The notes under the pieces: model-generated | Told to the model about the DNA's origin: nothing | Databases searched by the model: none | What the model saw: the letters and a program-made list of their open reading frames with translations, nothing else | NCBI GenBank assembly: GCA_028281665.1 | Contig: JANQJK010000006.1 | Coordinates: 1-64,000, forward strand | Length of the DNA stretch: 64,000 nt | Direction of reading: 5' to 3' | From: Hyphococcus sp. | GTDB lineage: Bacteria; Pseudomonadota; Alphaproteobacteria; Caulobacterales; Parvularculaceae | Shown: positions 4,538-51,062 of the stretch, one piece after another | How positions within the stretch are numbered: position 1 is the first letter of the stretch | Layout of the letters: every line of letters begins with the position of its first letter | Translations under genes and position numbers: made by a program

Positions 4538-4538
4538 G

Positions 4539-7125: not shown

Positions 7126-7191
7126 AAGAGCGGCGCTGGCGTCAGCCCCGTTGGTTGATATACTCGCAGCCAAATATTCAGGAGCATGATT

Positions 7192-7746
7192 ATGAGAGTT
7201 GCCGCCGCCCTCGCCCCGTTCATCGTCGCCATCGCCGCCTCAACCCACGCGCAGGCCGACGGCGCCAGCGATATTGAAGCGTGCCGTACGAACAGCGCAT
7301 CGCCCGAGGACCGCATCGCCTGCCTCGAAGCCGCGCTTTTAAGACGCGACGAAAGCGCGACCGCGGAAGAGATGCTGACCGCCGATGCAAGCGCAGACGA
7401 TGACGCCGATATTGCGCCGGAGGCCAGCACGGCTCCCGAAGTTGAAGTAGCCGAACTCGGCGCCGAACAAGTGCGCACGGAAAAAGAAATCGAAGAGCGT
7501 CAAAAAAAGAAAAAGGCGCAGAAAGTCGTCGCATCGGTTACCGATCTCGCGCGGTCGCAGAACGGCCAATACATCTTTTTTTTGGACAACGGTCAGATCT
7601 GGCGCCAGAAGCGGTCGGACAGCAATACGATGACGATCTCCCGGCGCCCCTCCTATGATGCGGAAGTCTCGCGCGGCGCGATCAGCGGATATCGATTAAA
7701 GCTCTCCGGCATTCGCAGATCGTTTGCAGTTGAGCGGGTAAAATAA
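7192..7746 (+). CDS. Small secreted protein of unknown function
   Basis: The protein of about 184 residues starts with a signal peptide (about 1-22, ending AQA). The ATG at 7192 has GGAG seven bases upstream; the ATG at 7186 is too close to it. A segment with two cysteines in an ACRTNSASPEDRIACLE pattern follows. The middle is rich in acidic residues and alanine, then a charged helical stretch with a run of lysines (near 100-112). The C-terminal 70 residues form a compact domain with a YIFFLDNGQIW motif, a pattern I know only from uncharacterised alphaproteobacterial envelope proteins. It follows btuD by about 65 bases and precedes a strong terminator, so it could be read with the B12 genes or alone. 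No function can be assigned. Confidence 0.8.
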   Translation: MRVAAALAPFIVAIAASTHAQADGASDIEACRTNSASPEDRIACLEAALLRRDESATAEEMLTADASADDDADIAPEASTAPEVEVAELGAEQVRTEKEIEERQKKKKAQKVVASVTDLARSQNGQYIFFLDNGQIWRQKRSDSNTMTISRRPSYDAEVSRGAISGYRLKLSGIRRSFAVERVK

Positions 7747-7747
7747 A

Positions 7748-7774
7748 AAACGGCGGCCCGTCGGGCCGCCGTTT
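7748..7774. terminator. Two-way transcription terminator
   Basis: AAACGGCGGCCC (7748-7759) and GGGCCGCCGTTT (7763-7774) form a perfect 12-pair stem with a three-base loop. It has an A-run on the left and T-run on the right, so it can act on both strands. It lies between two convergent genes. Confidence 0.93.
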
Positions 7775-7796
7775 CCGTAGTTTTTCGCACCGGTTA

Positions 7797-10769: not shown

Positions 10770-11387
10770 TTATTCCCTCAATTTTACTTCGGTTTTTAAC
10801 GTTGTGTATTTGCGACGAAACCGCCTGAGCGTGTTCAACAATGCACACATTTTCCTGCGCTCGTCGTTGGGCGCATTGTGTACGGGTCGAATGTTGAGGC
10901 AAGCGGCGCTAGCTGTTCCGTGAACAGAAAACGCCAACGAATCTGTGATTGTGTCCCGTGCGCAACATGGTTAACGCCGCATGCCGCATAAATTAAGGCG
11001 TTGTTAATCTTCGTTCCACAGCCATTAACGCTTGCGGAACGGTAATAAAGAGAACTACAGTGTGCCCCGTGTGAGCCAGGAAGCAATTGGGCGTTACTCC
11101 CCAGCTCACGGGTACGTTGAACAACCGGCACCGGAGGGAGCCTGCTGTTCGATCAGTAGACAACCGGCAGACAAAACTCCTCAATAGTTTGGCGAGTTTT
11201 TTGCGACGCCGGGAGCCGCGAGAGCGGCGAACTGATCGAAACAGTGCGGGCAACGGCCTTCGCATCCAAAATTTGGGCATCCAAAATTTGGGGCGTGGCG
11301 GTCCTGCCAGGACGGGTCTGGAGACCCGTTTGACCGGAGGCGTATCGAGCTTGTGACCAAGCCAACCGACATATGCGGAGGCCGGCG
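10770..11387. other. Intergenic region between divergent receptor and sigma-factor genes
   Basis: These 618 bases hold no convincing gene. They contain a hairpin AAAACTC...GAGTTTT (11173-11200) followed by two more T bases, which could end a leader transcript, and a tandem 15-base palindromic repeat (11262-11291). Promoters for both flanking genes must lie here but no clear sigma-70 pair was seen. Confidence 0.6.
11262..11291 (+). repeat. Tandem 15-base palindromic repeat, possible operator
   Basis: GCATCCAAAATTTGG occurs twice head to tail (11262-11276 and 11277-11291). Each copy contains CCAAA-A-TTTGG, an inverted repeat with a one-base centre. The pair lies about 97 bases ahead of the sigma-factor start, so it may bind a regulator, one dimer per copy. 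Confidence 0.6.
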
Positions 11388-11933
11388 ATGACGCCGGACC
11401 AGACCGCCAGAATCGAGACCGCCATCCGTGAAAACGAAGGCATGCTCGTTAAGTGGCTGACGCGCCGACTCGGAGATCCTGACGCGGCCGGCGACGTGGC
11501 GCAGTCGGTGTATCTGCGTGTCTGGAGCTACGCGGCGACAGAGCTGGTTACAAATCCCAAAGCGTTGATTTTCAAGACCGCGGGCAATCTTGCGGTTAAT
11601 GAAATGAAGCGCCGGAACACATTCAACCGCAGACACATCATGCCCTCCGAGAATGACGACGACGACGCGATGTCCAATATCGCGGCTACCGGCCCGACAC
11701 CCGAAAAAGAGACCAGCCTGCGTCAGGACGTTCGCAAAACGCTTGATGCAATCGCGGCGCTGCCCGATCCGGCGCGCACCGCATTCACCATGAACCGCTT
11801 TGACGGGTTGAGTTATCGCGAGATCGCCAAGCGCATGAAAGTTTCCGAAAGCAGCGTCGAAAAATACATGATCGTTGCGCTGAAACGACTGCGTCAGGCG
11901 CTGCGCGACGACGATGCGACAGACAAGGATTAA
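11388..11933 (+). CDS. ECF-type RNA polymerase sigma factor (FecI-like)
   Basis: A protein of about 181 residues with sigma region 2 (about 20-85, including DVAQSVYLRVW and a NLAVNEMKRR segment) and region 4 (about 120-172, with FDGLSYREIAKRMKVSESSVEKYM as the -35-binding helix-turn-helix). The ATG at 11388 has GGAGG six bases ahead; an ATG 15 bases further up lacks a site. It is followed after 64 bases by a FecR-type regulator and then a receptor with an STN domain. This is the classic cell-surface signalling order: the loaded receptor signals through FecR, which frees the sigma factor to transcribe the receptor gene. Targets outside this unit are unknown. Confidence 0.93.
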   Translation: MTPDQTARIETAIRENEGMLVKWLTRRLGDPDAAGDVAQSVYLRVWSYAATELVTNPKALIFKTAGNLAVNEMKRRNTFNRRHIMPSENDDDDAMSNIAATGPTPEKETSLRQDVRKTLDAIAALPDPARTAFTMNRFDGLSYREIAKRMKVSESSVEKYMIVALKRLRQALRDDDATDKD

Positions 11934-11997
11934 GTAGCGCGGCCGCGCAAGGGGACTGCTTGCGGCCCATTAGTAGAAAGGAAATCGGGGCGCATCT

Positions 11998-12996
11998 ATG
12001 ACCGATTTACAACCCGGACGCGACGACCTTCGTCGCATCGACGATCAGGCTGCGGCCTGGGCGGCGAGGCGCTTATCCGGCGCCTTCGACAAAGACGACG
12101 AGTCGCGATTTCGAGCGTGGCTTGACGAGGACGCGCGCCACAAGGCTGCGCTGAATGAATATATGGCGATCGCGGAAACAAGCGCGCTGGCCGGGGCGGT
12201 CGGCGGGCTGAGCGCGCCCGCCAATGACGAGCCCGCGCGGAACAGTGTATCGCCGCGGCGCTGGTGGCGCGTCGGCGCGCCTGCAATCGCAGCATCATTG
12301 TTTGCGGCGTTTTTCTTTTTTACGGCGTCCTACGAGACGCCCGCGGACCCTGAACGGTTTGCTACCGTTCGGGGCGAAACACGCGACATCTCCCTGCCTG
12401 ACGGAACGACGGTCACGCTGAATACCGACACGGTTCTCACCTTTGATATGAAAGGGGACGAACGGCATGCGGTGCTGGAGCGCGGCGAAGCCTATTTCGA
12501 CGTGGCGCACGACAAGGCGCGCCCGTTTTCCGTAGACGCAGGCGACGCGCGCACGACCGTGCTCGGCACAAGCTTCACCGTTCGCATCGAAGACGGCGCC
12601 TCCTTTGTCGGCGTCCTGCGCGGCAAAGTCGCGGTCCATTCCATAACCGACGGCGCGCCAACGGACGGTTTGCAGCTTGAACCCGGCCAGCGGGTCGCCG
12701 TGACGTCAGCAGGCGCCGTTGGCGGGGTCGACACGTTCGACACCAGCACCGCCGCCACATGGCGATACGGCTATCTCTATTTTGACGAAACGCCCCTCAC
12801 CCATGTCGTCGCCGACCTGAACCGGTATTTTGACCGGCGTGTGGAACTGGCGGACGATGACCTCGGTTCGGCGCCCGTTTCCGGCAGAGTCGAGCTTGAC
12901 GATCAGGACGTGGCCGTTCGCGCCATCAGCGTGGCGCTCTCGCTGAAGGTCGAGCAGGCCAATGCCGACAAAATCATTCTGCGAGCGGATGATTGA
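11998..12996 (+). CDS. FecR-family anti-sigma regulator
   Basis: A 332-residue single-pass inner-membrane protein. The cytoplasmic N-terminal domain (about 15-60, AAAWAARRLSG then FRAWLDED) binds the sigma factor. A transmembrane helix lies at about 93-111. The periplasmic FecR domain (about 121-220) has TVRGETRDISLPDGT, LNTDT and RGEAYFDV motifs, and the C-terminal part ends in an STN-like fold (WRYGYLYFDETPL onward) that contacts the receptor signalling domain. It overlaps the receptor gene by eight bases. It should hold the sigma factor inactive, or modulate it, until the receptor at 12989 binds its ligand. Confidence 0.93.
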   Translation: MTDLQPGRDDLRRIDDQAAAWAARRLSGAFDKDDESRFRAWLDEDARHKAALNEYMAIAETSALAGAVGGLSAPANDEPARNSVSPRRWWRVGAPAIAASLFAAFFFFTASYETPADPERFATVRGETRDISLPDGTTVTLNTDTVLTFDMKGDERHAVLERGEAYFDVAHDKARPFSVDAGDARTTVLGTSFTVRIEDGASFVGVLRGKVAVHSITDGAPTDGLQLEPGQRVAVTSAGAVGGVDTFDTSTAATWRYGYLYFDETPLTHVVADLNRYFDRRVELADDDLGSAPVSGRVELDDQDVAVRAISVALSLKVEQANADKIILRADD

Positions 12997-15900
12997 TGCC
13001 CAACCTCATATGCATGCGCTGCGTCGGGCTCTGCTCGGCGCCGGCGTTGTTTTGCTGTGGCTTACCCAACCGCTAACGGCAAACGCCGCCGATGCCCCCG
13101 TGCACGCATTCTCAGTGCCCGGCGGAACGCTCGCCGATGCGCTGAAGCAGTTTTCCGATCAGTGCGGCGTTTCCCTCGTCTACGACCATCGCATCGTTTC
13201 GGGGCGTCAGGCGCCCCCGGTTTCCGGCATGTTGACGACACAGGACGCGCTCGGAGCGCTGCTAAGGGACTCACCGCTGGATTATCGCGAGATAGACGGC
13301 GACACACTGGCGATCGTCAAACGTCCGCCGTTGGTTGAGTTGATGCCCGAATTGCCGGCGCGCAAACACGTCATTGACGACGATCGCGGGCGCATTGACG
13401 AGGTTATCGTTACGGCGAGTTATCGCGCGCCCGACGTGAGTGGCGACATAAGGTTGGGCTATACCCTCGACAACGAGGCCTTGGACCTGTCCGGCGCACA
13501 GAACGTCGCCGAACCAATCCTTGAACTGCCGACGACGGTAGCCTCAATCTCGGCCGCGAACTCGCAACTGCTTGTCTCCGCCAGCGGCTTGAATCTCACC
13601 GACCTGCGGGGACTGGAACCGATGCGGTCCCTCGTTCTTATAAATGGACGCCGTTTTGTCAGAACAAGCGGCGGCAATGGCGGAGTTTACGGCGTAGACC
13701 TCACGTCGATTCCCACCGCACTGATAGACCGTGTGGAGATCATCAATCAGGGCGCCGGGCCGACGCTCGGCACGGATGCGGTTGCCGGCGCGGTCAACAT
13801 CATCATGCGCGATCATATCGACGGCGTTTCCATATCCGCTCATGGCGGCGTTTCGGAGCGCGGCGACGCCGGCGAGTACTCGTTCTCGGTGTTCGCCGGC
13901 GATGAGTTCGCCAGCGGGCGCGGCAGAATTTCCGGCGGTGTTGTTTACACTGCGGATCCATCGTTGTTTTTCTCCGACCGGGACTACCTTTCGCAACCTT
14001 ACGGTTTTGCGCTCGACGGACGGCGCACGCCTCACGGCGTCGGCGTTTACACGCCCGGTTTCGGCGGCAGCATTATTACGCCGGCGGGCGCCGTCGGCGG
14101 GGCGGTGGGCGCCGACGGCGATGTCGCCTTGTTCGCCAACCCATATGCGCAATACGCACTGACGCCAGGCGGGTTCGAACTCTTCGACGGAAGTCTGGAT
14201 CAGCTGTTTAACTGGGTGGACGGCTTCTCCGCGCTGCCGGAAGTTGACCGTTTGCACGGCTACGCGCGCTTTGACTTGGAGCTTTCGGCCAATGCCTCCT
14301 TTTACGGCGAGTTCTTTTACGCCGATGTAGAGACGACGAACCAGATCGCGCCGGCGCCGCTTGCGTTTTTTCGCGGCGCCGACACAGCCACCGGCGACGC
14401 CCTGCTCGTTCCAGCCGACCATCCGAGCGCGCCGGCCGGATTGCGCGCGTCCGTTGAAGCGGCCGTTGGCGGCCCGATTGACGGCTTTCTGGTCAACCGC
14501 CGCTTCGTCGAACTGGGCCCGCGCCGGCAAGACATTGACAGACGAACAACGGACTTTGTCACCGGCGCGGAAATCGATCTCGGGGACGGCTGGGCCCTCA
14601 ACGCGTCATACGGCTACGGTCGCAGCAGGACGGAAATCGAGGCGAACGGATTCGTCGATGCGACGCGCGTCGCCATTGCCGCCGACCCGGATCTTTGCGC
14701 AGCAACGCCGGGATGCGCGCCGCTGGATGTTTTTTCAGGACAGCCGGTCCCACAAGCCACGGCCGACTATTATCGTCTGCCCGCGCGAATACGGCGCATC
14801 ACAACGCAGGAGCACGTAGCGCGGATCGCCGCTTCGGGACCGCTCTACGAGCTGGACGACCGCCAGGGGTTCTTTTCCGCAGGCGCAGAGTATCGACGCG
14901 ACATCCTGGATGACAAAGGCGCGTCGGCGTTTTCGTCAGCCGTCGCACTGCCGGAACTCCAGGCGCCCGGCAGCAGCGGATCGGTCGGATACGGGGAAAT
15001 CTTCGCCGGGATCAACCTGCCGTTCGCGCCGGGCGACGCAGTCTTCGGTGTTTTCGTACTTGGTGCTGACGGACGCGCCACGCGATGGAGCGGGCGCGGT
15101 TTCGTGGGCAATATCAGCGGCGACCTGTCATGGACGCCCATAGCCGGACTGGAGCTTTATGCTTTCGCGCTCTATGGCGGGCGCGCGCCGAATGTCGTCG
15201 AACTCACATCCGCCGGCCTGAATTTCGCACGAACCTATATTGATCCGTGTGCGGCTCCGTTTAATCAAACCGTTGCGGACAATTGCGCATCCGGCGGGGC
15301 GCTGGGCGTGCCAGCCGGGTTTTCTCAGCAAAACGCTCTCATTCGTCACAGCGCCAGCGGCAATCCGCGCCTCGACAATGAAAAAGTTCGAACACGTCAT
15401 TTTGGCGCCGCCCTGGATATTCAGGAATTCGTTTATCTCGGCGAGGATGCGCTCCGGGTGACGGCGGACTGGCGCTATCACAGGGTGATGAACCAGATTG
15501 GCGGCACGGGCGCCATTGCGCTGCTCCTTGAATGTTACGAAAGCGCGGCTTTGTCGAGCCAGTTTTGCGGCGTGAACCCCGCGACTGGAAACCTGTTTTT
15601 GCAGCGCGACGCATCGAGCGGCGAACTTACCTTAATAGAAACAACGTATCTTAACGGCGGCGAGATTGAAACGAGCGGCCTGGATGCGACGTTAGCGTAT
15701 CGGGGCGAACTCCTCGGGGCGCCGCTAGCGCCGGCATTGTCGCTGGACGTCCTTTATTCATACGTGAACGAAGTAAATTTTCGCGGCATACACGATAAAG
15801 GCGTCGAGAGCGTTCTCGGCCTTTCAGACTTTCCGCGCCATCAGATTTATGCGACGGCCAGCCTTGAGACGGATCGCTGGAAGACGCTCTGGACCATACG

Positions 15901-41284: not shown

Positions 41285-41477
41285 AAATACCCCCGAAGGC
41301 CTCCACCAGCCGCAAAGCGGCAAGGGGCCACATTACACGAGCCGGCGACGAATTCCCATAGCCTCCGCGCGGCGTAATATAACGACGCCTCGCGGTCGCT
41401 CACGCAATATGTGATTGGGCTCCAATCGCGACAGGGCGTAGGGATAGCCGAATGCAACGCTCGCCGATCCCGTTTTC

Positions 41478-42704
41478 ATGATCACGGAACCGCTTGTCGT
41501 CATTGCCCTGTGCATTGTCGCCTATGGCGTCTTTTCAGCGCGATTGTCCGGAAGCTTCGTATCGGCGCCAATGGTGTTCACCCTTGCGGGGCTTGCGGTT
41601 GGCGGCGCGGGGCTCGGCATTGTCGACATCAATATCGACAATCGCGTGCTCGAAGGATTTGGCGAACTGACCCTCGGCTTTTTGCTGTTCGCTGACGCCG
41701 CCTCAACCAACAGCCGCAAGCTGGCGCATAACACACGCATTCCGCGGCGGCTCCTGCTGGTTTCCCTGCCCCTGACGATCCTTGCGGGAACCCTGTTCGC
41801 GATATTGATTTTTCCGGATCTCAGCTGGCAGGAAGCGGCGCTGATCGCCGCGATCCTGGCGCCCACCGACGCGGCGCTCGGCCTTGCGGTTGTCACCAGC
41901 AAGCATGTGCCGGAGCGCATCCGCCAGGCGATCCTCGTTGAATCGGGCCTCAATGACGGGCTGGCGCTCCCCGCGGTTCTGTTGTTCGCCGCGCTCTCGT
42001 TCTCGGTTATGGAAACAGGGGATCAGGGCGTCGGCTATTGGCTTCAGTTCGCCGGCCAGCAAATTGTCGTTGGCGCGTTCGTGGGCGCTGCCATCGGCGC
42101 AGTGCTCGGCAAGCTTGTCCACTATGCCGACGGCAAGGAATGGATCTCGCATTCATTCCGCAATCTCACATGCATCGGCGTCGCCGTGCTGACACTTTTC
42201 TGCGCCCACCTCGCCGGCGGCAACGGGTTTATCGCGGCCTTTGTGGGCGGGCTCGCCTTCGGCAGTTTCTGCTCGCGGCGGGCGGGATCCCTGACGAATT
42301 TCGTCGAAGAAGAAGGCCAGCTTTTCAGCCTGATCATTTTCTTTTTCTTCGGCGCGGTTCTGCTGCCCGCGGCGTTTCCTTATGTCACCGCCCTTTGCTT
42401 CGTATACGCACTGTTGAGCCTCACGGTTATACGCATGGCGCCGACAGCGGTTTCTGTCGTCGGTTTGAACCTTAAATGGCCAACGACCGGCTTCATCGGC
42501 TGGTTCGGCCCACGAGGGCTTGCATCAATTCTGTTTCTCCTGATTGCAGTTGAACACGATGAGGTGGGGCGTCTGACGGATATTGAGCGCGTCGTTTACA
42601 TCACTGTGTTTTTGAGCATCCTGATGCATGGCGCGACGGCAGCGCCATTGTCAAAATGGTTCGGGGGCTCGGCGGCGGCAAAGGCGGACAGTACAGGCGG
42701 CTAG
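41478..42704 (+). CDS. CPA1-family cation/proton antiporter (NhaP-like)
   Basis: A 408-residue protein with about 12 helices and the CPA1 landmarks: ILAPTDAALG near 133-142 and ESGLNDGLALP near 160-170, whose aspartates bind the cation and proton, then FFFFGAVLLP and WFGPRGLASILF near 340-351. It exchanges Na+ or K+ for H+ across the inner membrane. The long cytoplasmic tail of eukaryotic-type members is absent. It ends with a four-base overlap against the convergent redox operon. Whether it works with that operon or only sits beside it cannot be told. Confidence 0.9.
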   Translation: MITEPLVVIALCIVAYGVFSARLSGSFVSAPMVFTLAGLAVGGAGLGIVDINIDNRVLEGFGELTLGFLLFADAASTNSRKLAHNTRIPRRLLLVSLPLTILAGTLFAILIFPDLSWQEAALIAAILAPTDAALGLAVVTSKHVPERIRQAILVESGLNDGLALPAVLLFAALSFSVMETGDQGVGYWLQFAGQQIVVGAFVGAAIGAVLGKLVHYADGKEWISHSFRNLTCIGVAVLTLFCAHLAGGNGFIAAFVGGLAFGSFCSRRAGSLTNFVEEEGQLFSLIIFFFFGAVLLPAAFPYVTALCFVYALLSLTVIRMAPTAVSVVGLNLKWPTTGFIGWFGPRGLASILFLLIAVEHDEVGRLTDIERVVYITVFLSILMHGATAAPLSKWFGGSAAAKADSTGG

Positions 42705-43498
42705 ATGCGGCGGTATGCGCCCGCATCGGCGCGGAACTGCAACAGGTCGCCCACACGAACGATCTCGCCCTCCGCCTCGACGGCGTCCGCGACGAGCGGC
42801 AGGATGTCCATGGGCATCGCCCCGCCTTCCGCGTCGGTCATCAGCAGAACGGATTCGCGACCGTCTTTCGTCCGCACCCAGAAGCTCGGGGGGATGCCGC
42901 CGCGGATACACAGGCTCGCGCAAGCCTTGTGAGTCTTGCCGCGGCCGGGGCGCATGACGCCGAAGAAGCATTTTGAATCCATGATCGTTCCGGCTAGGCG
43001 GGCCGACCCGAGCGACACCGGTTCCAGCGCCGCCACGGCGCCGGGCATGTCGATAAAGGCCGGATTCAACCAATCGTCCAGGAACGGCGGCACCTCCAGC
43101 ATGCGCCGATCCTTGCGTTCGATCAGAACGCCCGACGCCTCGACGGGCAAGCCTTCCTTGTCCGCAAGTTTCAGGGACGACGTGCATTTTCCCTGGGCAA
43201 CAACCAGAACCGTCCGCATGCCGAATGGCGCCGGCGGATCGCTCACCCGCAACATCGGATACGGCGCGCTCACCAGGGCGCCCGTAACCTTGTGCGTGGC
43301 ATTGGTCAGCCAGGCGCCGGCGCCCGGATCGTCAAGCTCCGATGCGATCAGCCAGCTCGCGCCGCCGCCGGCGATCAACCCCAGCGGCAAGGCGCCGAGC
43401 AAGAAACGCCGGTCGACCGCCGGCGCCTTCGCCCAGCCGATGAACATTTCCTGTGCGTCGATTTTCGCCGGATCAATGACGCCTTTGCGCACGCTCAT
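42701..43498 (-). CDS. Membrane-anchored protein with a C/M/H/C/C motif, unknown function
   Basis: A 265-residue protein. After a polar N-terminus comes a DRRFLLGALPLG segment (about 29-40) that looks like a twin-arginine signal and one helix (about 32-52), so the rest should be periplasmic. The notable part is near 169-204: AGTIMDSKCFFGVM, then PGRGKTHKACASLCIRGGIPP, with C177, M182, H190, C193 and C197 spaced as if to bind a metal or haem; C105 is a further cysteine. I recall similar blocks only in uncharacterised proteins. It is the last gene of the Rieske operon and starts inside the stop of the gene before (ATGA), so it is probably a redox partner or copper/iron-binding subunit. Confidence 0.85.
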   Translation of the reverse strand: MSVRKGVIDPAKIDAQEMFIGWAKAPAVDRRFLLGALPLGLIAGGGASWLIASELDDPGAGAWLTNATHKVTGALVSAPYPMLRVSDPPAPFGMRTVLVVAQGKCTSSLKLADKEGLPVEASGVLIERKDRRMLEVPPFLDDWLNPAFIDMPGAVAALEPVSLGSARLAGTIMDSKCFFGVMRPGRGKTHKACASLCIRGGIPPSFWVRTKDGRESVLLMTDAEGGAMPMDILPLVADAVEAEGEIVRVGDLLQFRADAGAYRRI

Positions 43499-44559
43499 GA
43501 CGCACCTCCAGCGACAGGAATGAGCGCGGGCTCAACCCGGGTTCCCGGCTTGTTGGGTTTCGGGTCCAGCATCACCCGGCCGGCCTCGATCCGCACATTG
43601 TAGGTCGATATCTTTTCGGTGAAGGGCGGCGGCGAAACCCCGTCATCGGGCCGATACTGCCAGCCATGCCAAGGGCAGGTGATGCAGCCGTCGACGACGC
43701 GGCCCTCGCCCAGCGGTCCGTTCTGGTGCCGGCAGGCATTGGTGACCGCGGAAATCCTGCCGTCATACCGAAAGATCGCAACCCGGTCGCCTTTCGGCAG
43801 CGGCGTGATGACGGCGCGATTTTCTGCAATATCGTCCGGCGCACAAACATCGATCCAGCCTTTCGCTTTCAAGGCTTTCATACCGCTGTCCGCGCCCCAT
43901 TCGCGCAACCCGGCGATCAGATGCAAACCGGAAACGCCGATGAATGCGACAGCCGTCATGATTGGATAAACCATGGACTTTTCGGTCATCAGCGCGCCGA
44001 GGACGATGTGCATGACGAGCAGCGCATAGGCCGGATAGATGAGCATATGCAGCGCTTTCCACACCGGCGCAGACAAATTGTTGAGCCAGAAATCATGGCT
44101 CGTCGCCGCCATCGCCATCATGATGAGGAAGGCGGCGAAGCCGAGGGTTTCGAAAGGAAAACCGGGGATCGAATCGTAAAGCGGATTTGAAACGAACAGC
44201 GATACGAAGGGGTTGAGCGGCCCGCCGCCATGATACCAGAGCAAGGCCAGCCCGAAATGCGCCGACGCCACAAGAAACGTTGCAACGCCAAGGTGCCGGC
44301 GATTGTAAAGCAAGGTGAGAAAGCGCTTGTTCATGCGCGCAAGGGGCCCAATGGCGAGGACGACCGTCAGGAGTGCAAACGCCGCCGTTCCCAATGCGCG
44401 GATCGCAAGCACCACCGGGTCCGCAGTGTGTCCGCTATCATGGGGCCGCAATCCGACGACCATGAACACGCCCACAAAAAGCGCAACAAAGGCAAAAAGA
44501 TAAAGATCGTATACGACCTTGTTCCCGTTCCACTGGATGGCCTTGTATTGATGCCCCAT
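43495..44559 (-). CDS. Ferric reductase-like haem membrane protein fused to a Rieske domain
   Basis: A 354-residue protein. Residues about 15-215 form six or so helices of the ferric-reductase/YedZ-MsrQ type with two histidine pairs suited to b-haems: H89 and H101 on one side, H171 and H184 on the other. The C-terminal third is a Rieske domain with CRH at 276-278 and CPWH at 295-298 (C-x-H-x16-C-x2-H), so a [2Fe-2S] cluster is expected, most likely on the cytoplasmic face. The fusion would pass electrons between a soluble donor and membrane haem. The start is the ATG at 44559, which shares one base with the stop of the small gene before. Confidence 0.9.
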   Translation of the reverse strand: MGHQYKAIQWNGNKVVYDLYLFAFVALFVGVFMVVGLRPHDSGHTADPVVLAIRALGTAAFALLTVVLAIGPLARMNKRFLTLLYNRRHLGVATFLVASAHFGLALLWYHGGGPLNPFVSLFVSNPLYDSIPGFPFETLGFAAFLIMMAMAATSHDFWLNNLSAPVWKALHMLIYPAYALLVMHIVLGALMTEKSMVYPIMTAVAFIGVSGLHLIAGLREWGADSGMKALKAKGWIDVCAPDDIAENRAVITPLPKGDRVAIFRYDGRISAVTNACRHQNGPLGEGRVVDGCITCPWHGWQYRPDDGVSPPPFTEKISTYNVRIEAGRVMLDPKPNKPGTRVEPALIPVAGGAS

Positions 44560-44717
44560 CACTGACTCCGAGTATCGTCGATGGTTTCGATGGCGTCCGG
44601 CATCTCCGCGAACGGCGTCTGCGGCCGCTGCATCCATGCGAATACGCCCGCGATGAGCGTCGCCGGCGCAAGGACCAGCCATATGAGGAGATGCGTTCTG
44701 CGGTGCGGGCGTTTCAT
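44559..44717 (-). CDS. 52-residue single-helix membrane protein
   Basis: A small gene between two others. It has an ATG at 44717 with GAGGAGG six bases ahead, codes for a basic N-terminus (KRPHRRTH), one helix LLIWLVLAPATLIAGVFAW (about 10-28) and a short acidic tail, and stops at 44559. Its start overlaps the stop of the 77-residue gene (ATGA) and its stop overlaps the next ATG (TGATG). This exact packing and the good ribosome site make it real despite its size. It may be a small subunit that holds the haem protein and its partners together. Confidence 0.85.
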   Translation of the reverse strand: MKRPHRRTHLLIWLVLAPATLIAGVFAWMQRPQTPFAEMPDAIETIDDTRSQ

Positions 44718-44947
44718 GACGCCTCCTCATCGGGCTTGTTGATTTTCACGCCCGATAGCCAGCGGATCACGACTGCCGGCCACAGCGTGACACAGCCAAG
44801 AAAGATCATGGGCCGGAAGAAAAGGCTTGCGCCTTTCGCCGCAGCGTCGATGCGGTTGACGCCGAATACAAGGAACAAGGTCGCAACAATCACACCGACG
44901 CCGAACCAGGCGCCGAGCAGCGACACAATCAGGTTTGCCAGATCCAT
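44714..44947 (-). CDS. 77-residue two-helix membrane protein
   Basis: A small protein with helices at about 3-28 (LIVSLLGAWFGVGVIVATLF) and 43-63 (FFRPMIFLGCVTLWPAVVI), then a charged tail. AGGAGGG precedes the ATG at 44947, which shares one base with the stop of the Rieske-glutamate synthase gene. It contains one cysteine in the second helix. Its place in the middle of a tightly coupled redox operon suggests a membrane subunit, perhaps docking the soluble flavoprotein. No homologous family of known role is recognised. Confidence 0.85.
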   Translation of the reverse strand: MDLANLIVSLLGAWFGVGVIVATLFLVFGVNRIDAAAKGASLFFRPMIFLGCVTLWPAVVIRWLSGVKINKPDEEAS

Positions 44948-46566
44948 CACCGCCCTCCTGCGCCGCCAAAGGCGACGCCCGAAAGCTCGGCCATGTCGCG
45001 CTTGAACGTCGTCAGATCGTCGATGTTGAAATCCGACAGACGCGAATGACCGCAGGCCCGCGCGAGAATGGACATGAGTTCCGTCGCCGCTTCGAAAAAG
45101 TTGGCAAGCCGCTTTGCGGCGATCTGGATTTCGAGACGCGCGCGCAAATGTTCTTTCTGGGTTGCAATCCCGACCGGGCAATTATTGGTGTGGCAGGCGC
45201 GCATGCCGAGACAACCGATGGCCTGCATCGGCGCATTGGAGAGCGCCACGGCGTCCGCGCCGAGAGCAAGCGCCTTCACATAGTCGGCGGGCTTGCGCAA
45301 TCCGCCGGTTGCAATGAGCGACACATTCGCCGCGCCGCTCCGGTCAAGGTGGCGCCGGGCGCGCGCAAGCGCCGGAATTGTCGGCACCGAGATGTTGTCG
45401 CGAAAGATGATCGGCGCCGCGCCGGTGCCGCCGCCCCGTCCGTCGATAATGATATAGTCGACGCCGGCTTCGAGCGCAGCGTCGATATCCTTCTCGATAT
45501 GCTGCGCGGACATTTTATAACCGACGGGAATGCCGCCGGTCTGTTCGCGCACTTCAATGGCAAAGTCGCGAAACTGCGAAACGTCTGTCCAGTCGGGAAA
45601 ACGCGACGGCGAGATCGCATCCTCGCCGGGATTCAACCCGCGCACCTTGGCGATTTCGTCTTTGACTTTGGCGCCGGGCAGGTGGCCGCCGGTGCCGGTC
45701 TTTGCGCCCTGCCCGCCTTTGAAATGGAAAGCCGCGGACTCGCGCACCTTGTCCCACGAAAACCCGAATCGCGCCGAGGCGAGTTCGTAAAAATATCGCG
45801 TGTTGGACTGGCGCTCTTCATCCAGCGACCCGCCCTCGCCGGAACAAATGCCAGTGCCCGCCATTTCCGCGCCTTTAGAGAGCGCAATCTTCGCCTCCCG
45901 CGAAAGGGCGCCGAAACTCATATCCGAAACGAAAAGCGGAATTTTCAGCTTCAGCGGTTTTTGCGCGCCGGGACCGATCGTCACTGATGCGTCCACCGGC
46001 TCGTCATCCAGCAATGGCGGGCGATGAAGCTGCGCCGTCAAAACCTGAATGTCGTCCCATTTCGGCAGGTCGTCCCGCGGCACGCCCATGGCCGCCACGA
46101 CGCCGTGATGGCCGGTTTTGGAAAGGCCGTCTTTGGCGTAACCCTGGATGAGGCCGACAAACGGTTCCTCCGCTTCCGGGTGGGTGTCCGCATACAGACC
46201 TTGATATGCGTCGCGCTGAAACGGTTGCGGGTGATCGACGGCCCATTCATTGACCGCATCGCGGTCCACAAAGACCTTGCCGCCTTTTACCTGCGACGGG
46301 AATTTCTGGAGCGCTTCTGCATTGTTGTACGCGCTGACGCCGGTATCCAGTCGGTAATCCCAGTCATGGAGCCCGCAGATCAGGTTCTCGCCGTCCACAT
46401 GTCCGTCCGCCAGCAAGGCGCCGCGATGGAGACAGCGCCCGTAAAGAACGGACACGTTTTTGTCGTATCGTATGACGACGAGATCGACCTCGCCGACAAT
46501 CGCATATGCCGGTTTGCGGTCTTCAAGATCCGACCATTTCGCAATGGCCTCCCAGTTCTTCCCCAT
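44947..46566 (-). CDS. Rieske domain fused to glutamate-synthase-type FMN domain
   Basis: A 539-residue soluble protein. The N-terminal Rieske domain (about 5-105) has CLH at 45-47 and CGLH at 64-67. The rest (about 130-520) is the FMN/[3Fe-4S] domain of the glutamate synthase large subunit: MSFGALSREAKIALSKGA, GICSGEGGSLDEER, GGQGAKTGTGGHLPG, YIIIDGRGGGTGAAP and the cluster cysteines C452, C458 and C463 in MRACHTNNCP. It has no glutaminase domain, so it need not make glutamate; stand-alone proteins of this kind are often annotated FMN-binding glutamate synthase family. It is the first gene of the operon and should link an FMN reaction to the Rieske chain. The substrate is unknown. Confidence 0.92.
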   Translation of the reverse strand: MGKNWEAIAKWSDLEDRKPAYAIVGEVDLVVIRYDKNVSVLYGRCLHRGALLADGHVDGENLICGLHDWDYRLDTGVSAYNNAEALQKFPSQVKGGKVFVDRDAVNEWAVDHPQPFQRDAYQGLYADTHPEAEEPFVGLIQGYAKDGLSKTGHHGVVAAMGVPRDDLPKWDDIQVLTAQLHRPPLLDDEPVDASVTIGPGAQKPLKLKIPLFVSDMSFGALSREAKIALSKGAEMAGTGICSGEGGSLDEERQSNTRYFYELASARFGFSWDKVRESAAFHFKGGQGAKTGTGGHLPGAKVKDEIAKVRGLNPGEDAISPSRFPDWTDVSQFRDFAIEVREQTGGIPVGYKMSAQHIEKDIDAALEAGVDYIIIDGRGGGTGAAPIIFRDNISVPTIPALARARRHLDRSGAANVSLIATGGLRKPADYVKALALGADAVALSNAPMQAIGCLGMRACHTNNCPVGIATQKEHLRARLEIQIAAKRLANFFEAATELMSILARACGHSRLSDFNIDDLTTFKRDMAELSGVAFGGAGGR

Positions 46567-46698
46567 GGATTTTTCGCCCGCGCCCGTTTCACAGAAGTTT
46601 TGTCAATCGTGATTTGCGCAATCCTATGGAGCCCGCCCAGAATTGCAAAACACAATTCATCACGGCCGCGCGGGGTAGCCGTGCAGGCGAAGGTCGGT

Positions 46699-48780
46699 AT
46701 GCTTTCATTCCTGAAGCGTCTTATGGGAACAAAGCCGGCGCCGCCCGGTAACGCTGGCGCCGCGCCGCAGCAAAGGGACTCTATGGCTTCCGAACAGCAC
46801 GATGTTGAATGGCACAAGGTCGCGGAAAAAGGCGGGTTACCCGAGGGGCGCGTCACCACCGTCACCGCCGGTCGCAAGACGCTGGCGCTTGTTCATTTCG
46901 ACGGCCAGTACGCGGCGATGGACAATCGCTGTCCCCATCAGGGCGGCCCTCTTGGCGAAGGCTCCATCGAAAAAGGCATTGACGACAAATGCTGGCTGCG
47001 CTGCCCCTGGCATGGCTGGGACTTCGATCCGCTGACCGGCAAGCCGCCGGGCGGTCACGAAGATGCCGGTCAGGAAATGTTTCCGGTCGAGGAGCGGGCG
47101 GACGGACTTTATGTGGGCCTGCCGCCGGAGCCGGACCATGTGCGCACGTCGACGGATGTCATCGCGGAGACCATGGTCAATTGGGGGCTCAAGCGCGTTT
47201 TCGGCATGGTCGGCCATTCCAATCTCGGACTGGCCGACGCCTTCCGCCTTCAGGAGGACGCCGGCAACCTGACCTATGTGGGCATTCGCCATGAAGGCGC
47301 CGCGTCGTTCGCCGCGTCTGGCTACGCCAAGCTGACGGGCAAGCCCGCCGCCTGTATGTCCATTGCCGGGCCCGGCGCCACCAATATGATGACCGGGCTT
47401 TGGGACGCCAAGGTCGATCGCGCGCCGATCGTCGCCTGCGCCGGGCAGGTGCAGGTTCAGGTGTTTTCGCCTTTCGCCTTTCAGGACATCGACCTTCATG
47501 GCGCTTTCGCGCCGGTCGGCGAATTCAACCAGCTTGTCCTCCATGCATCGAACTACGCGGAAGTCGCCAATCTCGCCATGAAGTCGGCGATTGTGGAACG
47601 GGATGTTTCCGTACTGATCTTTCCCGACGACGCACAGACATTGCCCGCGCCGGACATGAAAGCCGGCAGGCCCGAGGGACGTCTCGCCGCGCCGCGCATG
47701 GCGCCGGCAAGCGATGTCGTCAACGCCGCTGCGGATCGCATACATGCAGCAAAGCGCCCGGTGATCATCGTCGGCTACGGCGCCCGCGAGGCCATGGACG
47801 AAGTGACGAGCTTCGCCGAGCAGCTTTCCTGTCCGGTAGTGACGACGTTCAAAGCCAAGGGACAGATTCCCGACACGCATCCGCTCGCCGGCGGCGTTCT
47901 CGGCCGGTCGGGCACACCCATCGCGTCATGGTTCATGAATGAATGCGATCTCATCATCGCGGTCGGCGCATCGTTCTCCCACCACACCGGGATCGAGCCG
48001 AAGAAGCCGATTGTGCAGATCGACTTCGACCGCATGCATCTCGGCAAAGGTCACGCCGTCGACGTGCCTGTCTGGGGCGAAATCGGGCTTACGCTGCCGC
48101 TTATTCGCGACCGGCTGACGGCGCGAGGATCCGGCGGATCGGCGGCGCAGGACCAGCGCAAGGAGATCGCCGACCGCTGGGCGATCTGGCGGCGGGAGAA
48201 AGAACGCCGTCTCAGCGACAATCGCGGGAAAGGGATCAACGCCGCCTCGCTCTTCGCGGCAATGACAAAAATTGTCCCCGCTGACGCGGTCATGCCCGTG
48301 GATGTGGGCAACAACACGTATTCATTCGGGCGCTATTTTGAACCCTGCGGGCAGCGCATTTTGATGTCCGGCTATCTCGGGTCTATCGGGTTCGGGTTCC
48401 CCGCGGCCATGGGCGCATGGGCGGCGACTCAGGACTTCCCGGAATATTCCGGCCGCAAGGTCGTATCGGTCTCCGGCGACGGCGGGTTTGGTCAGTATGC
48501 GATGGAATTCACGACCGCCGTTCACTACGATATGGATATCACCCATATTCTGATGAACAATTCAGAGCTCGGCAAAATCTCCAAGGAGCAGCGTTCCGGC
48601 GAGTGGCCGGTCTGGCAGACGGGGCTGACCAATCCGAACTTCGCCGACTTCGCCCGCTCCTGCGGGGGCAAAGGACTTCGAGTTGAAAGCGCCGATCAGC
48701 TTGAAGCGGCGCTGAAAGAGGCCATCGCCCATCCGGGGCCGGCGCTCGTCGAAGTCATCACCGACGCGGAACTGGTCTGA
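46699..48780 (+). CDS. Rieske domain fused to a thiamine-diphosphate enzyme
   Basis: A protein of about 693 residues. The N-terminal Rieske domain (about 36-140) has CPH at 78-80 and CPWH at 102-105. The remainder is a full TPP enzyme of the acetolactate-synthase/pyruvate-oxidase group: catalytic glutamate E199 in IRHEGAAS, the central FAD/nucleotide-like domain with VIIVGYGAR, and the TPP motif starting GDG at 593 and ending NN at 620-621. The start is the ATG at 46699; a GTG at 46681 or an ATG at 46783 are options. It is divergent from the Rieske operon over 132 bases. It may oxidise a 2-oxo acid and give electrons to the iron-sulfur cluster. Confidence 0.9.
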   Translation: MLSFLKRLMGTKPAPPGNAGAAPQQRDSMASEQHDVEWHKVAEKGGLPEGRVTTVTAGRKTLALVHFDGQYAAMDNRCPHQGGPLGEGSIEKGIDDKCWLRCPWHGWDFDPLTGKPPGGHEDAGQEMFPVEERADGLYVGLPPEPDHVRTSTDVIAETMVNWGLKRVFGMVGHSNLGLADAFRLQEDAGNLTYVGIRHEGAASFAASGYAKLTGKPAACMSIAGPGATNMMTGLWDAKVDRAPIVACAGQVQVQVFSPFAFQDIDLHGAFAPVGEFNQLVLHASNYAEVANLAMKSAIVERDVSVLIFPDDAQTLPAPDMKAGRPEGRLAAPRMAPASDVVNAAADRIHAAKRPVIIVGYGAREAMDEVTSFAEQLSCPVVTTFKAKGQIPDTHPLAGGVLGRSGTPIASWFMNECDLIIAVGASFSHHTGIEPKKPIVQIDFDRMHLGKGHAVDVPVWGEIGLTLPLIRDRLTARGSGGSAAQDQRKEIADRWAIWRREKERRLSDNRGKGINAASLFAAMTKIVPADAVMPVDVGNNTYSFGRYFEPCGQRILMSGYLGSIGFGFPAAMGAWAATQDFPEYSGRKVVSVSGDGGFGQYAMEFTTAVHYDMDITHILMNNSELGKISKEQRSGEWPVWQTGLTNPNFADFARSCGGKGLRVESADQLEAALKEAIAHPGPALVEVITDAELV

Positions 48781-48783
48781 CCG

Positions 48784-49476
48784 TCAGGCGTTTTCGTCAA
48801 ACCCGCGAAAAGTCGTGAAATCCTCAACGGGTGCGCGATCGGTGCGCAACCGGTTAAGCGGGTGGTCGGGGTCGCGGCACCCCATCGCCATGCCGGAAAA
48901 CAAAATTGCGTCGTCGGGAAGGCCGCAAAAAGAACTTACCGTTTCAGGAAATCGAGCCCACGCTTCCTGCGCACACGTATCAAGGCCGCGTTCGACGGCA
49001 AGCAACATGATTGTCTGCATGAGCATGCCGACGTCGGACCATTGGGGCGGACCGAACTTGCGATTGAACGAAAAGAACAACCCAACGGGCGCGTCGAAGA
49101 GTTTGAAGTTCTCGGCAAGCTGGGCCAGCCGGCCGAGCTTGTCATCGCGCGCCACATCGATCAGCGCGTAAAGGTCTTCGCCGCATTTGTAGCGATAGGA
49201 ACGATGCGGCTCCCACAATTTCTGTGGATAAACCTCATATTGCGTGGCCTCGGTTTCGCCGGCTTTCAGCTTTGCATCGACGATGGCTTTAAATTCTTCG
49301 AGCGCGGCGCCCGCCAGCACATCGACCTTCCATGGCTGCACATTGCCGCCGGACGGCGCGCGCCTCGCAATATCGAGAATCTCGTAGACAGTCTCGTAAG
49401 GAACAGGCGTTGGGAGAAACTTCCGCACCGACATGCGGCGCTCGACGGCCTGCGAAACGCTGATCTTTTCTGTCAC
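48784..49476 (-). CDS. Nitroreductase family flavoprotein
   Basis: A 230-residue FMN-dependent NAD(P)H oxidoreductase. It has the RRMSVRKFLPTPVP start near 13-26, the RRAPSGGNVQPWKV block near 38-51 that grips FMN, a central LFFSFNRKFGPPQWSDVGM and the late GMAMGCRDPDHPLN. This is the PnbA/NfnB-like branch that reduces nitroaromatics or quinones. The start is a GTG with AAGGAG seven bases upstream. It lies 11 bases after prfC on the same strand and ends 3 bases from the TPP-enzyme gene end to end. Confidence 0.92.
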   Translation of the reverse strand: MTEKISVSQAVERRMSVRKFLPTPVPYETVYEILDIARRAPSGGNVQPWKVDVLAGAALEEFKAIVDAKLKAGETEATQYEVYPQKLWEPHRSYRYKCGEDLYALIDVARDDKLGRLAQLAENFKLFDAPVGLFFSFNRKFGPPQWSDVGMLMQTIMLLAVERGLDTCAQEAWARFPETVSSFCGLPDDAILFSGMAMGCRDPDHPLNRLRTDRAPVEDFTTFRGFDENA

Positions 49477-49487
49477 GACAGGGCTCC

Positions 49488-51062
49488 TTACGCGCGTTCC
49501 CGGGTCTTCAGGAATTTCACCGTTGGGTTTTTCTCCTCAGCGTAGCCCGCCTCCCAGGCCGACCGCGCGAGGAACACCGGCGAGCCGTAGCGGTCATGGG
49601 CGACCGCGCCCTGATTCTTTGAAACAAAACTGGCGACCGCCTCCCCATCGCCGCCGACCCAGCGAACCGTTTCGAACCCGCATGGCTCCAGCCCCGCAGC
49701 AACGCCATATTCGGCTTTCAGCCGCTCCTGAATGACATCGAGCTGCAACGCGCCCACGACGCCCACGTAAAAATCCGCCCCAAGGGCCGGCGTGAACACC
49801 TGGCTTGCGCCTTCTTCGGCAAGGGCGATCATCGCGCGCTTCATCTGTTTCGATTTCATCGGGTCATCGAGGCGCACGCGGCGGATAATCTCCGGGGCGA
49901 AATCGGGAAGGCCCGAGAACTGCAACCCCTCGGTTTCGCTGAGCGTATCGCCGACCCCAAGTGCGCCATGATTGGGAATGCCGACGATGTCGCCGGCGAC
50001 CGCTTCCTCCGCAAGCTGACGGTCCTGCGCAAGAAAGAAGATCGGATTGTTCACCGCGAGCGCCTTTCCCGTGCGCGTCACTTTCAGTTTCATACCGCGA
50101 TTGAACTTGCCTGAGCACATCCGAACGAACGCAATGCGGTCCCGGTGGTTCGGGTCCATATTCGCCTGCACCTTGAAAACGAAACCGGAAACGGCGTCCT
50201 CATCCGGCATGATTTCCTTGTCGCCGGCCTCCTGCGCACGGGGCGGCGGCGCGTATTCGCCAACGCCGCGCAGCAGCTCGGCCACGGTGAACTCCTTCAA
50301 GGCCGAACCGAAGTAAACCGGCGTCAGCGTTCCGTCGCGAAAAGCCTGGGCGTCGAACGACGCATAGCCTTCCCGCGCCAGCTCCATCTGTTCGCGCGCT
50401 TCGTCCGCCAGCTCCGCGCCCGCCGCGTCGTCAAGCTGCGCGTCGTCGAACCCGGAAAGCTGCACCGCCCGTTCATAGTGAGCGGCGTCGTCCGATGACG
50501 GAAGCAACAGGCGATGATTATCCATGTCATAGCAGCCGCGAAAACGTCCGCCTGTCCCCACGGGCCATACCTTGGGCGAGACATCGAGGGCGAGCTGGTC
50601 GGCGACTTCGTCGATGATCTCGAAGGGATCGCGCCCCTCGCGATCGACCTTGTTGACGAAGGTAACGATTGGAATGTCGCGCAGGCGGCAGACCTCAAAG
50701 AGTTTGCGGGTCTGCGTCTCGATGCCCTTTGCGGCGTCGATGACCATGATCGCCGAATCGACGGCGGTGAGCGTGCGATAGGTGTCCTCGGAAAAGTCCT
50801 CGTGGCCCGGCGTATCCAGCAGGTTGAAGACATTGCCGTCGAACTCGAAGGTCATCGCCGACGTGGTCACCGAGATGCCGCGTTTCTGTTCGATCGCCAG
50901 CCAGTCGGAGCGGGCGCGGCGGCGCTCGCCCTTGGCCTTCACCTCGCCGGCGAGGCGAATGGCGCCGGAAGCAAGCAGGAGCTTCTCCGTCAGCGTCGTC
51001 TTGCCGGCGTCCGGGTGGGAAATGATCGCGAAGGTGCGGCGATTGAGATAGGCGTCTGTCAT
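49488..51062 (-). CDS. prfC: Peptide chain release factor 3
   Basis: A 524-residue translational GTPase that removes RF1/RF2 from the ribosome after peptide release. G1 SHPDAGKTT is at 15-23, the switch region has EQKRGISVTTSAM, G3 is DTPGHEDF, G4 NKVDREGRDPFEI; domains II and III follow (GIPNHGALGVGDTL, GVVGALQLDVIQERLKAEY). Length and the EIID insertion after NKVD separate it from EF-G. The gene is a housekeeping one with no functional tie to its neighbours. Confidence 0.96.
   Translation of the reverse strand: MTDAYLNRRTFAIISHPDAGKTTLTEKLLLASGAIRLAGEVKAKGERRRARSDWLAIEQKRGISVTTSAMTFEFDGNVFNLLDTPGHEDFSEDTYRTLTAVDSAIMVIDAAKGIETQTRKLFEVCRLRDIPIVTFVNKVDREGRDPFEIIDEVADQLALDVSPKVWPVGTGGRFRGCYDMDNHRLLLPSSDDAAHYERAVQLSGFDDAQLDDAAGAELADEAREQMELAREGYASFDAQAFRDGTLTPVYFGSALKEFTVAELLRGVGEYAPPPRAQEAGDKEIMPDEDAVSGFVFKVQANMDPNHRDRIAFVRMCSGKFNRGMKLKVTRTGKALAVNNPIFFLAQDRQLAEEAVAGDIVGIPNHGALGVGDTLSETEGLQFSGLPDFAPEIIRRVRLDDPMKSKQMKRAMIALAEEGASQVFTPALGADFYVGVVGALQLDVIQERLKAEYGVAAGLEPCGFETVRWVGGDGEAVASFVSKNQGAVAHDRYGSPVFLARSAWEAGYAEEKNPTVKFLKTRERA

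Follow-up and report, generated by a model that had tools for sequence, protein, structure and literature searches.

Do three unrelated proteins that each carry a Rieske [2Fe-2S] domain, encoded side by side in one bacterial genome, belong to a single redox system, and what would such a system do? The question is raised by a gene set at positions 42701-48780 of a 64,000-nucleotide stretch of Hyphococcus sp. DNA (assembly GCA_028281665.1, contig JANQJK010000006.1, positions 1 to 64,000; hereafter the window), which comes from a genome of 3.35 Mb in 28 contigs. A first interpretation made from the letters alone (hereafter the sequence-only reading) had proposed that three different Rieske fusions form one redox island here. 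In this study, we followed up that proposal with domain, structure and genome comparisons and concluded that the system, whose genes we call A to F, is real, widespread and modular and, as far as searched, undescribed. It would represent a form of haem-based electron transfer across the membrane in which both the feeders and the outer partner are new.

Results

Gene set and its recurrence

Five genes form an operon on the minus strand. Gene A (46566-44947, 539 aa) encodes a Rieske domain (residues 4-90) joined to a glutamate-synthase FMN (flavin mononucleotide)/[3Fe-4S] domain (residues 201-506), B (44947-44714, 77 aa) a membrane protein with two hydrophobic segments, and C (44717-44559, 52 aa) a single helix with conserved R, H and W. 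They are followed by D (44559-43495, 354 aa), a six-helix ferric-reductase-type b-haem protein with a C-terminal Rieske domain (residues 235-320), and E (43498-42701, 265 aa), with an N-terminal membrane anchor and two OB-type (oligonucleotide/oligosaccharide-binding) domains. The overlaps are 1 base for A/B, 4 for B/C, 1 for C/D and 4 for D/E. Gene F lies on the plus strand (46699-48780, alternative start 46783), divergent from A across a gap of 132 bases, and encodes a Rieske domain (residues 37-116) ahead of a thiamine-diphosphate enzyme resembling pyruvate oxidase and PoxB (residues 149-690). The coupling of five genes by overlaps of 1-4 bases, the divergent thiamine-diphosphate gene and all coordinates are as the sequence-only reading had described them.

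A pattern scan with D across a one-genome-per-species collection returned at least 567 confirmed relatives, of which the best 80 loci were studied. In these loci, fetched with D as the query and therefore all containing it (80), hidden Markov model (HMM) matches were found to B in 76, to E in 78 and to C in 46, the last counted as matches over half the model; in other phyla C takes longer forms (families 12, in 8 loci, and 40, in 3 loci), and the loci with these forms partly overlap the 46 of 80. B-C-D-E is the core of the unit. The 80 loci span about eight phyla, and their titles name Alphaproteobacteria, a Chromatiaceae metagenome-assembled genome (MAG), Acidobacteria, Planctomycetes, Bacteroidetes groups, Gemmatimonadetes, Verrucomicrobia, Calditrichia and KSB1. 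The closest named relative of D belongs to a Marinicaulis MAG (92% identity), followed by other Parvularculaceae MAGs.

Full-length D was present in 15 of 23 other genomes of the same genus. When 20 loci with D were mapped (from 16 genomes, one of another family), all six genes were found in 10 and A-B-C-D-E up to the contig end in 3 more; one locus (L014) is cut by the contig end before B, and A is not beside D in 6 (L029, L031-L034 and L036). D was also found in five Rhizobium plasmid records, one of the matches covering 77% in two pieces. Three of these plasmids were opened; there, the genes in the places of B, C, D and E carry the annotations hypothetical protein and 'Rieske 2Fe-2S domain-containing protein', and in L121, the sole plasmid so tested, all four were confirmed by HMM. 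A chance neighbourhood was rejected, since the gene set is conserved within the genus and across phyla. Apparent orders with C ahead of B ('C B D') or behind D ('B D C') stem from sorting by open-frame start and were not accepted as real.

Co-occurrence and layouts of A, D and F

One set of 240 alphaproteobacterial genomes served for the searches with D (threshold 1e-40), A and F (1e-150 each), with A-like matches that lack the Rieske part counted separately. D was found in 13, F in 12, Rieske-bearing A in 7 and all three in 6, with the window's own genome counted in; among the 239 others the counts are 12, 11, 6 and 5, and the hypergeometric p for D with F is 5e-5, or 6e-3 when collapsed by genus. 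Three further A matches were without the Rieske part. A sample of 299 Pseudomonadota (partly the same genomes) held D in 7 and F in 5, and all five F genomes have D and A; besides the window's own genome, the 298 hold D in 6 and F in 4 (p 5e-8), again with D and A in four of four. The 85 evenly drawn Acidobacteriota gave D in 6, F in 5, Rieske-bearing A in 6 and all three in 5, which become 5, 4, 5 and 4 in the 84 genomes besides the sampling centre (p for D with F 2.6e-6). Finally, the 41 D-bearing genomes from the 80 loci whose titles name no alphaproteobacterium were tested for A and F: both are present in 16, neither in 23, A alone in 1 and F alone in 1 (hypergeometric p 2.7e-9), and the state of A and F on the D tree changes at least 11 times among them. 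A and F are thus paired with each other, and are an accessory pair to the core.

The arrangement varies. The layout of the window, in which A is collinear with the core and F points the other way, was seen in 8 of the 80 loci, plus L046 after allowing for frame sorting, and the genome G134 appears to share it. In four genomes (G315, G362, G441, G466) A, D and F lie on one strand within about 6 kb, while in three (G568, G624, G672) A and F are adjacent and D is divergent. Adjacent A and F were also found with D about 11 kb away (G599) or far away (G559), and in G161 the three genes are spread over three contigs. That A and F are linked to D in several different ways is the best indication that they function together with the core.

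These results bear directly on the sequence-only reading, which had made its proposal depend on whether the set is found together elsewhere. In the alphaproteobacterial, Pseudomonadota and Acidobacteriota samples, these three genes turn up together more often than chance would predict. The set does recur, in an order that differs between lineages; the proposed island of three Rieske fusions proves to be a real recurring unit, but a modular one, in which the window has one of several layouts and D often occurs without A and F.

The haem-Rieske membrane protein D

D matched the Pfam families Ferric_reduct (5.6e-14) and Rieske (8e-16), and its score against PF01794 (52.7 bits, cut-off 28) lies above the Pfam cut-off for the ferric reductase domain (FRD) superfamily (NOX/FRE/MsrQ). 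The NCBIfam model for MsrQ matched at 6e-11, below its cut-off, and an MsrQ-like fold is shared. The FAD- and NAD(P)-binding C-terminal domains of NADPH oxidase and FRE had no Pfam match in D, and the Rieske domain sits there instead. The four haem histidines (H89, H101, H171, H184) and the four Rieske ligands (C276-x-H278...C295-x2-H298) are invariant across 80 aligned sequences; the Rieske pattern matched in 80 of 80. The haem histidines lie in transmembrane helices 3 and 5 with spacings x11 and x12, just where a pair of haems would be expected to be bound; a stricter fixed-spacing pattern matched 72 of 80. The haem-histidine pair named in the sequence-only reading is therefore intact, but the number required correction, as D has two canonical pairs; the Rieske ligands that it reported as intact were likewise read in the sequences of A, D and F, and the [3Fe-4S] cysteines in that of A.

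The hydropathy profile of D shows six segments, with a basic loop (76-89; loop bounds set by hand) on the same side as the C-terminal Rieske domain, which should for this reason be cytoplasmic, while the globular part of E is predicted to lie outside. This agrees with the topology proposed before, in which the Rieske domain of D faces the cytoplasm and the motif of E lies outside.

The predicted outer protein E and the small proteins B and C

In E, hydropathy gave one hydrophobic segment, at the N-terminus, and six residues (K176, C177, M182, H190, C193, C197) do not vary among 67 sequences, the most distant of which has 23% identity to the window protein. A model built from this 67-sequence alignment (mean predicted local distance difference test score, pLDDT, 89.7) has an N-terminal helix followed by beta domains. 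Foldseek searches with two E models returned OB-fold proteins such as bacterial single-stranded DNA-binding protein (SSB), with TM scores from about 0.2 (by query) to 0.5 (by target); this resemblance of the models would indicate fold class only, and DNA binding is not suggested. A profile search of E against solved structures gave one match, at chance level. None of B, C and E matched a Pfam family, and among the three only C matched in NCBIfam, at 15.1 bits against a cut-off of 92. In B, G18, D34 and W56 are invariant (24 aligned sequences).

The Rieske-bearing enzymes A and F

A matched Rieske (1.6e-13) and Glu_synthase (6e-92, 309 bits) in Pfam, with no Pfam match to a glutamine amidotransferase domain, and it is a soluble protein in which a membrane helix was not predicted. 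Its Rieske ligands are C45-x-H47...C64-x2-H67, and a CX5CX4C motif has its cysteines at 452, 458 and 463. All 21 A homologues keep the latter, and 18 of the 21 keep the Rieske set; of the three misses, L049 is cut by a contig end, L059 is a partial frame, and in L102 the first half-motif is disrupted in the frame read. About 260-290 residues of A align with glutamate synthase (7mfm, 9.5e-41; 1llw, 3.1e-36). Q286, K289 and R309 of A align with Q969, K972 and R992 of 1llw, which we take to be 2-oxoglutarate contacts, and these matching residues point to an amino acid/2-oxo acid couple as its probable substrate. The Rieske part is missing from a sister family of A, whose matches begin near 127-131; members of this family are frequent among the Pseudomonadota sampled outside the class and are also present in Acidobacteriota.

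F matched Rieske (1.8e-17) and the N, M and C domains of TPP_enzyme (1e-29 to 2e-37), with Rieske ligands C78-x-H80...C102-x2-H105. This set is present in 13 of 13 full F homologues, in 11 by pattern and in L073 and L083, where the spacing is shorter, by eye. The best solved match was 3eya, 'Pyruvate dehydrogenase [cytochrome]' (258.8 bits), along the whole enzyme part. We take 3eya to be PoxB, a flavin thiamine enzyme that passes electrons from pyruvate to the membrane. E199 and GDGGF...NN are conserved in F and the Phe-Gln pair is kept, this type of Glu and the pair being presumably catalytic. F has nothing corresponding to the residues of 3eya after 529 and carries the N-terminal Rieske domain instead, and at 379.6 bits it stays below the NCBIfam equivalog cut-off for pyruvate oxidase (PRK08611, 742). 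K626 and K629, invariant in 13 of 13 homologues, align with F and M in 3eya, and these lysines suggest an acidic substrate. Two weak candidates (about 105 bits, in L101 and L104) belong to a different thiamine enzyme that has no Rieske domain and were excluded.

Intergenic element and neighbouring genes

Between A and F, at 46609-46653, lies a conserved element in which TGATTTGC stands opposite a GCAAAACAC half-site. TGATTTGC is kept in 11 of 11 aligned genus-level A-F intergenic regions, while the facing half-site is less conserved. The element is a candidate shared operator or promoter and would fit joint control of both arms. Counts of sigma-70 promoters (2 against 2.0 expected) and terminator-like sites (16 against 9.9 expected, standard deviation 3.1) in 41400-49600 were not used as evidence.

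Gene H (41478-42704, plus strand) encodes a CPA1-type cation/proton antiporter and converges on E with a 4-base overlap. It is near E in 12 of the 20 mapped loci; elsewhere, a CPA1-type antiporter lies in line with A and F in L039 (7333-8625) and after E in a Pyrinomonadaceae contig (L073, 11170-12417). The association of H with the gene set is suggestive, and we did not count it in the core.

In three Rhizobium plasmids and in L058, L061, L063 and L075, a short-chain dehydrogenase/reductase (SDR) gene takes the place of A directly before B. In L121 (1725-8609), L122 and L123 the core is accompanied by an SDR, a class III CoA-transferase and a thiamine enzyme without Rieske domain; the last two recur near the core in L101 and L104 (about 4300-8600), as does a tetratricopeptide repeat (TPR) gene. 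About 1 kb after the core in L122 (Rhizobium WSM1689 plasmid, 11906-13656) are extracytoplasmic function (ECF)-type sigma, DUF1109 and chlorite-dismutase-family genes. In a single locus, L032 (G023:C5:1029000-1044000), genes for an ECF sigma factor and a ChrR-cupin protein (Pfam Sigma70_r2/r4 and Cupin_7) immediately precede a second core copy (6383-12477), which also has an amine-oxidase-type flavoprotein and DUF1365 beside it, a cluster type that presumably belongs to singlet-oxygen responses. Singlet-oxygen control of the core was rejected, as the arrangement was seen in L032 only and neither its sigma factor nor its ChrR protein gave a tblastn match in the other 99 loci searched.

Related proteins stand beside F in L032 (694-1551), L039 (2809-3684) and L096 (1-747) and near the core in L120 (13387-14199); DUF5996 was matched in L120 (3.9e-13) and below cut-off in L032, and the L039 and L096 members are linked by tblastn only. 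Acidobacteria, Planctomycetes and Verrucomicrobia loci (L063, L072, L074, L075, L083, L087, L095, L098, L110, L115, L119) have recurring neighbour families, with one representative of each tested in Pfam: a VTT domain (13 loci), GNAT Acetyltransf_5 (10), TANGO2 (9), which is linked to haem handling, and DinB (7). Some phyla have lipid-related neighbours, from which no mechanism was drawn. Elsewhere in the window, within a region of polysaccharide type, the protein encoded at 32928-34475 matches GINT1_N (2.6e-36), a domain named after glucosamine inositolphosphorylceramide transferase.

Discussion

Proposed mechanism

Considering the above results, we propose that B-C-D-E is a transmembrane electron relay and that A and F are its cytoplasmic feeders, a reading to which we give slightly better than even odds (roughly 0.55). 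The substrates, the direction of the electrons, the acceptor and every step beyond the level of genes and domains are what we infer. F would use thiamine diphosphate, and probably FAD, for the oxidative decarboxylation of a 2-oxo acid, which probably bears an additional negative charge. A would oxidise an amino-acid-type substrate at FMN/[3Fe-4S], perhaps yielding the 2-oxo acid that F consumes. Each enzyme would pass single electrons to its own N-terminal Rieske cluster, and these clusters would dock on the cytoplasmic Rieske domain of D, which stands where NADPH oxidases have their FAD/NAD(P) domain. The two b haems of D would carry the electrons outward to membrane-anchored E, whose C-M-H-C-C site may hold a metal (copper is a guess) or a redox-active cysteine pair and serve a periplasmic acceptor. 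B and C may be small subunits that stabilise or assemble D-E, and in genomes without A and F another donor would feed D.

A more specific version holds that this is a widespread and so far unrecognised class of electron export across the membrane, in which Rieske clusters replace NAD(P)H and flavin as the cytoplasmic coupling: A (deaminating) and then F (oxidatively decarboxylating) would act on one substrate, both would discharge from Rieske to Rieske onto D, and a new periplasmic metal centre in E would receive the electrons. We offer it tentatively, as possible rather than probable; if true, organic acid oxidation would be coupled directly to the periplasm without NADH or quinone.

Evidence against the proposal and alternative explanations

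Several observations weigh against A and F as feeders of D. D occurs without both in 23 of the 41 D-bearing genomes without an alphaproteobacterial title, and in 7 of 13 Alphaproteobacteria, 2 of 7 Pseudomonadota and 1 of 6 Acidobacteriota with D, so that D must accept electrons from other donors. F is found without D in 6 of 12 Alphaproteobacteria, and Rieske-bearing A without D and F in family f169, which lies outside the class (five complete matches, two partial), and also in G112 and G606; therefore, neither A nor F needs D everywhere. Of the matches in the 41 genomes, 2 of 17 for A and 1 of 17 for F are partial. A tree-aware test of A with F found five supported independent pairs, of which 4.4 agree on average and none disagree (p 0.125); with only five such pairs the test cannot reach significance, and the raw p-values overstate independence. 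MAG incompleteness also affects the presence/absence counts, as genes missing from MAGs inflate losses.

The frequent absence of A and F (23 of 41 and 7 of 13 genomes) is also what an MsrPQ-like role of the core alone would lead one to expect. Here D would be fed by the quinone pool or a flavin reductase, E would be a periplasmic reductase for thiol, methionine or metal repair, and A and F would form a separate metabolic pair that shares only ecology or regulation with the core. The MsrQ-like fold of D, even though its NCBIfam match is below cut-off, and the SDR gene that replaces A before B point the same way. We regard this as the main rival and as rather doubtful: A and F adjoin D in three layouts and co-occur even when apart (G161, G559), and the presence of a Rieske tag on each of three unrelated proteins in one set calls for an explanation.

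The proposal could also be wrong about direction. The FMN domain of glutamate synthase receives electrons, and A could accordingly act as a reductase. D or another donor would then reduce the Rieske cluster of A, which would carry out a glutamate-synthase-like reductive amination, with F as the electron source and the membrane relay balancing or sensing redox state. A aligns with the FMN/[3Fe-4S] domain of the ferredoxin-dependent glutamate synthase, which is reduced by an iron-sulphur protein, and the agreement of Q286, K289 and R309 with 1llw fits this flow too. However, it would leave D and the invariant site of E without a clear role, A has no amidotransferase match for ammonia supply, and related FMN domains also act oxidatively; we consider reverse flow unlikely. 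Least probable is an NADPH-oxidase-like generator of reactive oxygen species or a ferric/cupric reductase, with Rieske replacing the flavin domain and E as a copper or iron handling protein: D is a member of the ferric-reductase domain superfamily, two Rhizobium plasmids have CopD-family genes close to the core, and an RND-pump-like family (resistance-nodulation-division, assigned by eye) occurs in 9 of 80 loci, but CopD had no tblastn match in 100 loci searched, and ApbE and iron-transporter families were not noticed among the 30 most recurrent neighbour families, which were judged by eye and partly Pfam-tested, with no dedicated search.

Significance

The four-gene core extends over about eight phyla and Rhizobium plasmids and includes an orphan periplasmic protein with an invariant, putatively metal-type site; no function for this core was found in the literature covered. 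If the core carries electrons from Rieske-tagged enzymes to the periplasm, it would be a new wiring of metabolism to extracytoplasmic chemistry. Rieske ferredoxin domains are best known as oxygenase partners, and the same arrangement, if true, would give them a new role.

Comparison with known systems

In the open-access literature (PubMed Central, PMC), a coverage outside which most subscription journals and preprints fall, no description of the gene set was found, and the nearest relatives are known for its parts. DUF5818 (PF19135) matched 9 of the 67 E members weakly (best 1.6e-4) and differs in that the window E gave no match to it; no paper by that name was found in PMC. A shares with glutamate synthase the FMN/[3Fe-4S] domain with its CX5CX4C motif, and differs in its size (539 aa vs about 1500), its N-terminal Rieske domain and the missing amidotransferase match. 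F resembles PoxB and the pyruvate oxidases in its whole enzyme part and in the retained Glu and Phe-Gln pair, in contrast to its N-terminal Rieske domain, its lack of a counterpart to the PoxB tail, and K626/K629 in place of the F and M of 3eya.

MsrQ, to our knowledge, has no Rieske domain. As in the periplasmic methionine sulfoxide reductase system MsrPQ (YedYZ), according to the passages seen of PMC5676040, a small FRD-type haem membrane protein would serve a separately encoded extracytoplasmic partner. Unlike MsrP, E is a tethered double-OB protein without a molybdenum-enzyme match, no MsrP-type molybdenum partner was present among the eight window genes scanned (Pfam/NCBIfam), and the putative donors A and F are unrelated to Fre. 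The domain pairing of D itself is not new: a 2013 survey of the FRD superfamily lists a ferric-reductase-domain plus Rieske architecture ('M4'), with FMN named in the same model, but the passages concerned name no B, C, E, A or F partners (PMC3591440).

The broader parallel is with NADPH oxidases, SpNOX and flavinylation-linked MsrQ-like systems, in which, from the parts of the sources consulted, haem pairs relay electrons outward from a cytoplasmic redox domain (PMC5676040, PMC8238504). The word 'Rieske' occurs once in PMC5676040, as an author name, and is absent from the main text of PMC8238504 and PMC11334425. An ApbE gene was not noticed by eye among the recurrent neighbours here. D would thus share the haem relay of this group, with the difference that it bears a Rieske domain where they have an FAD/NAD(P) domain.

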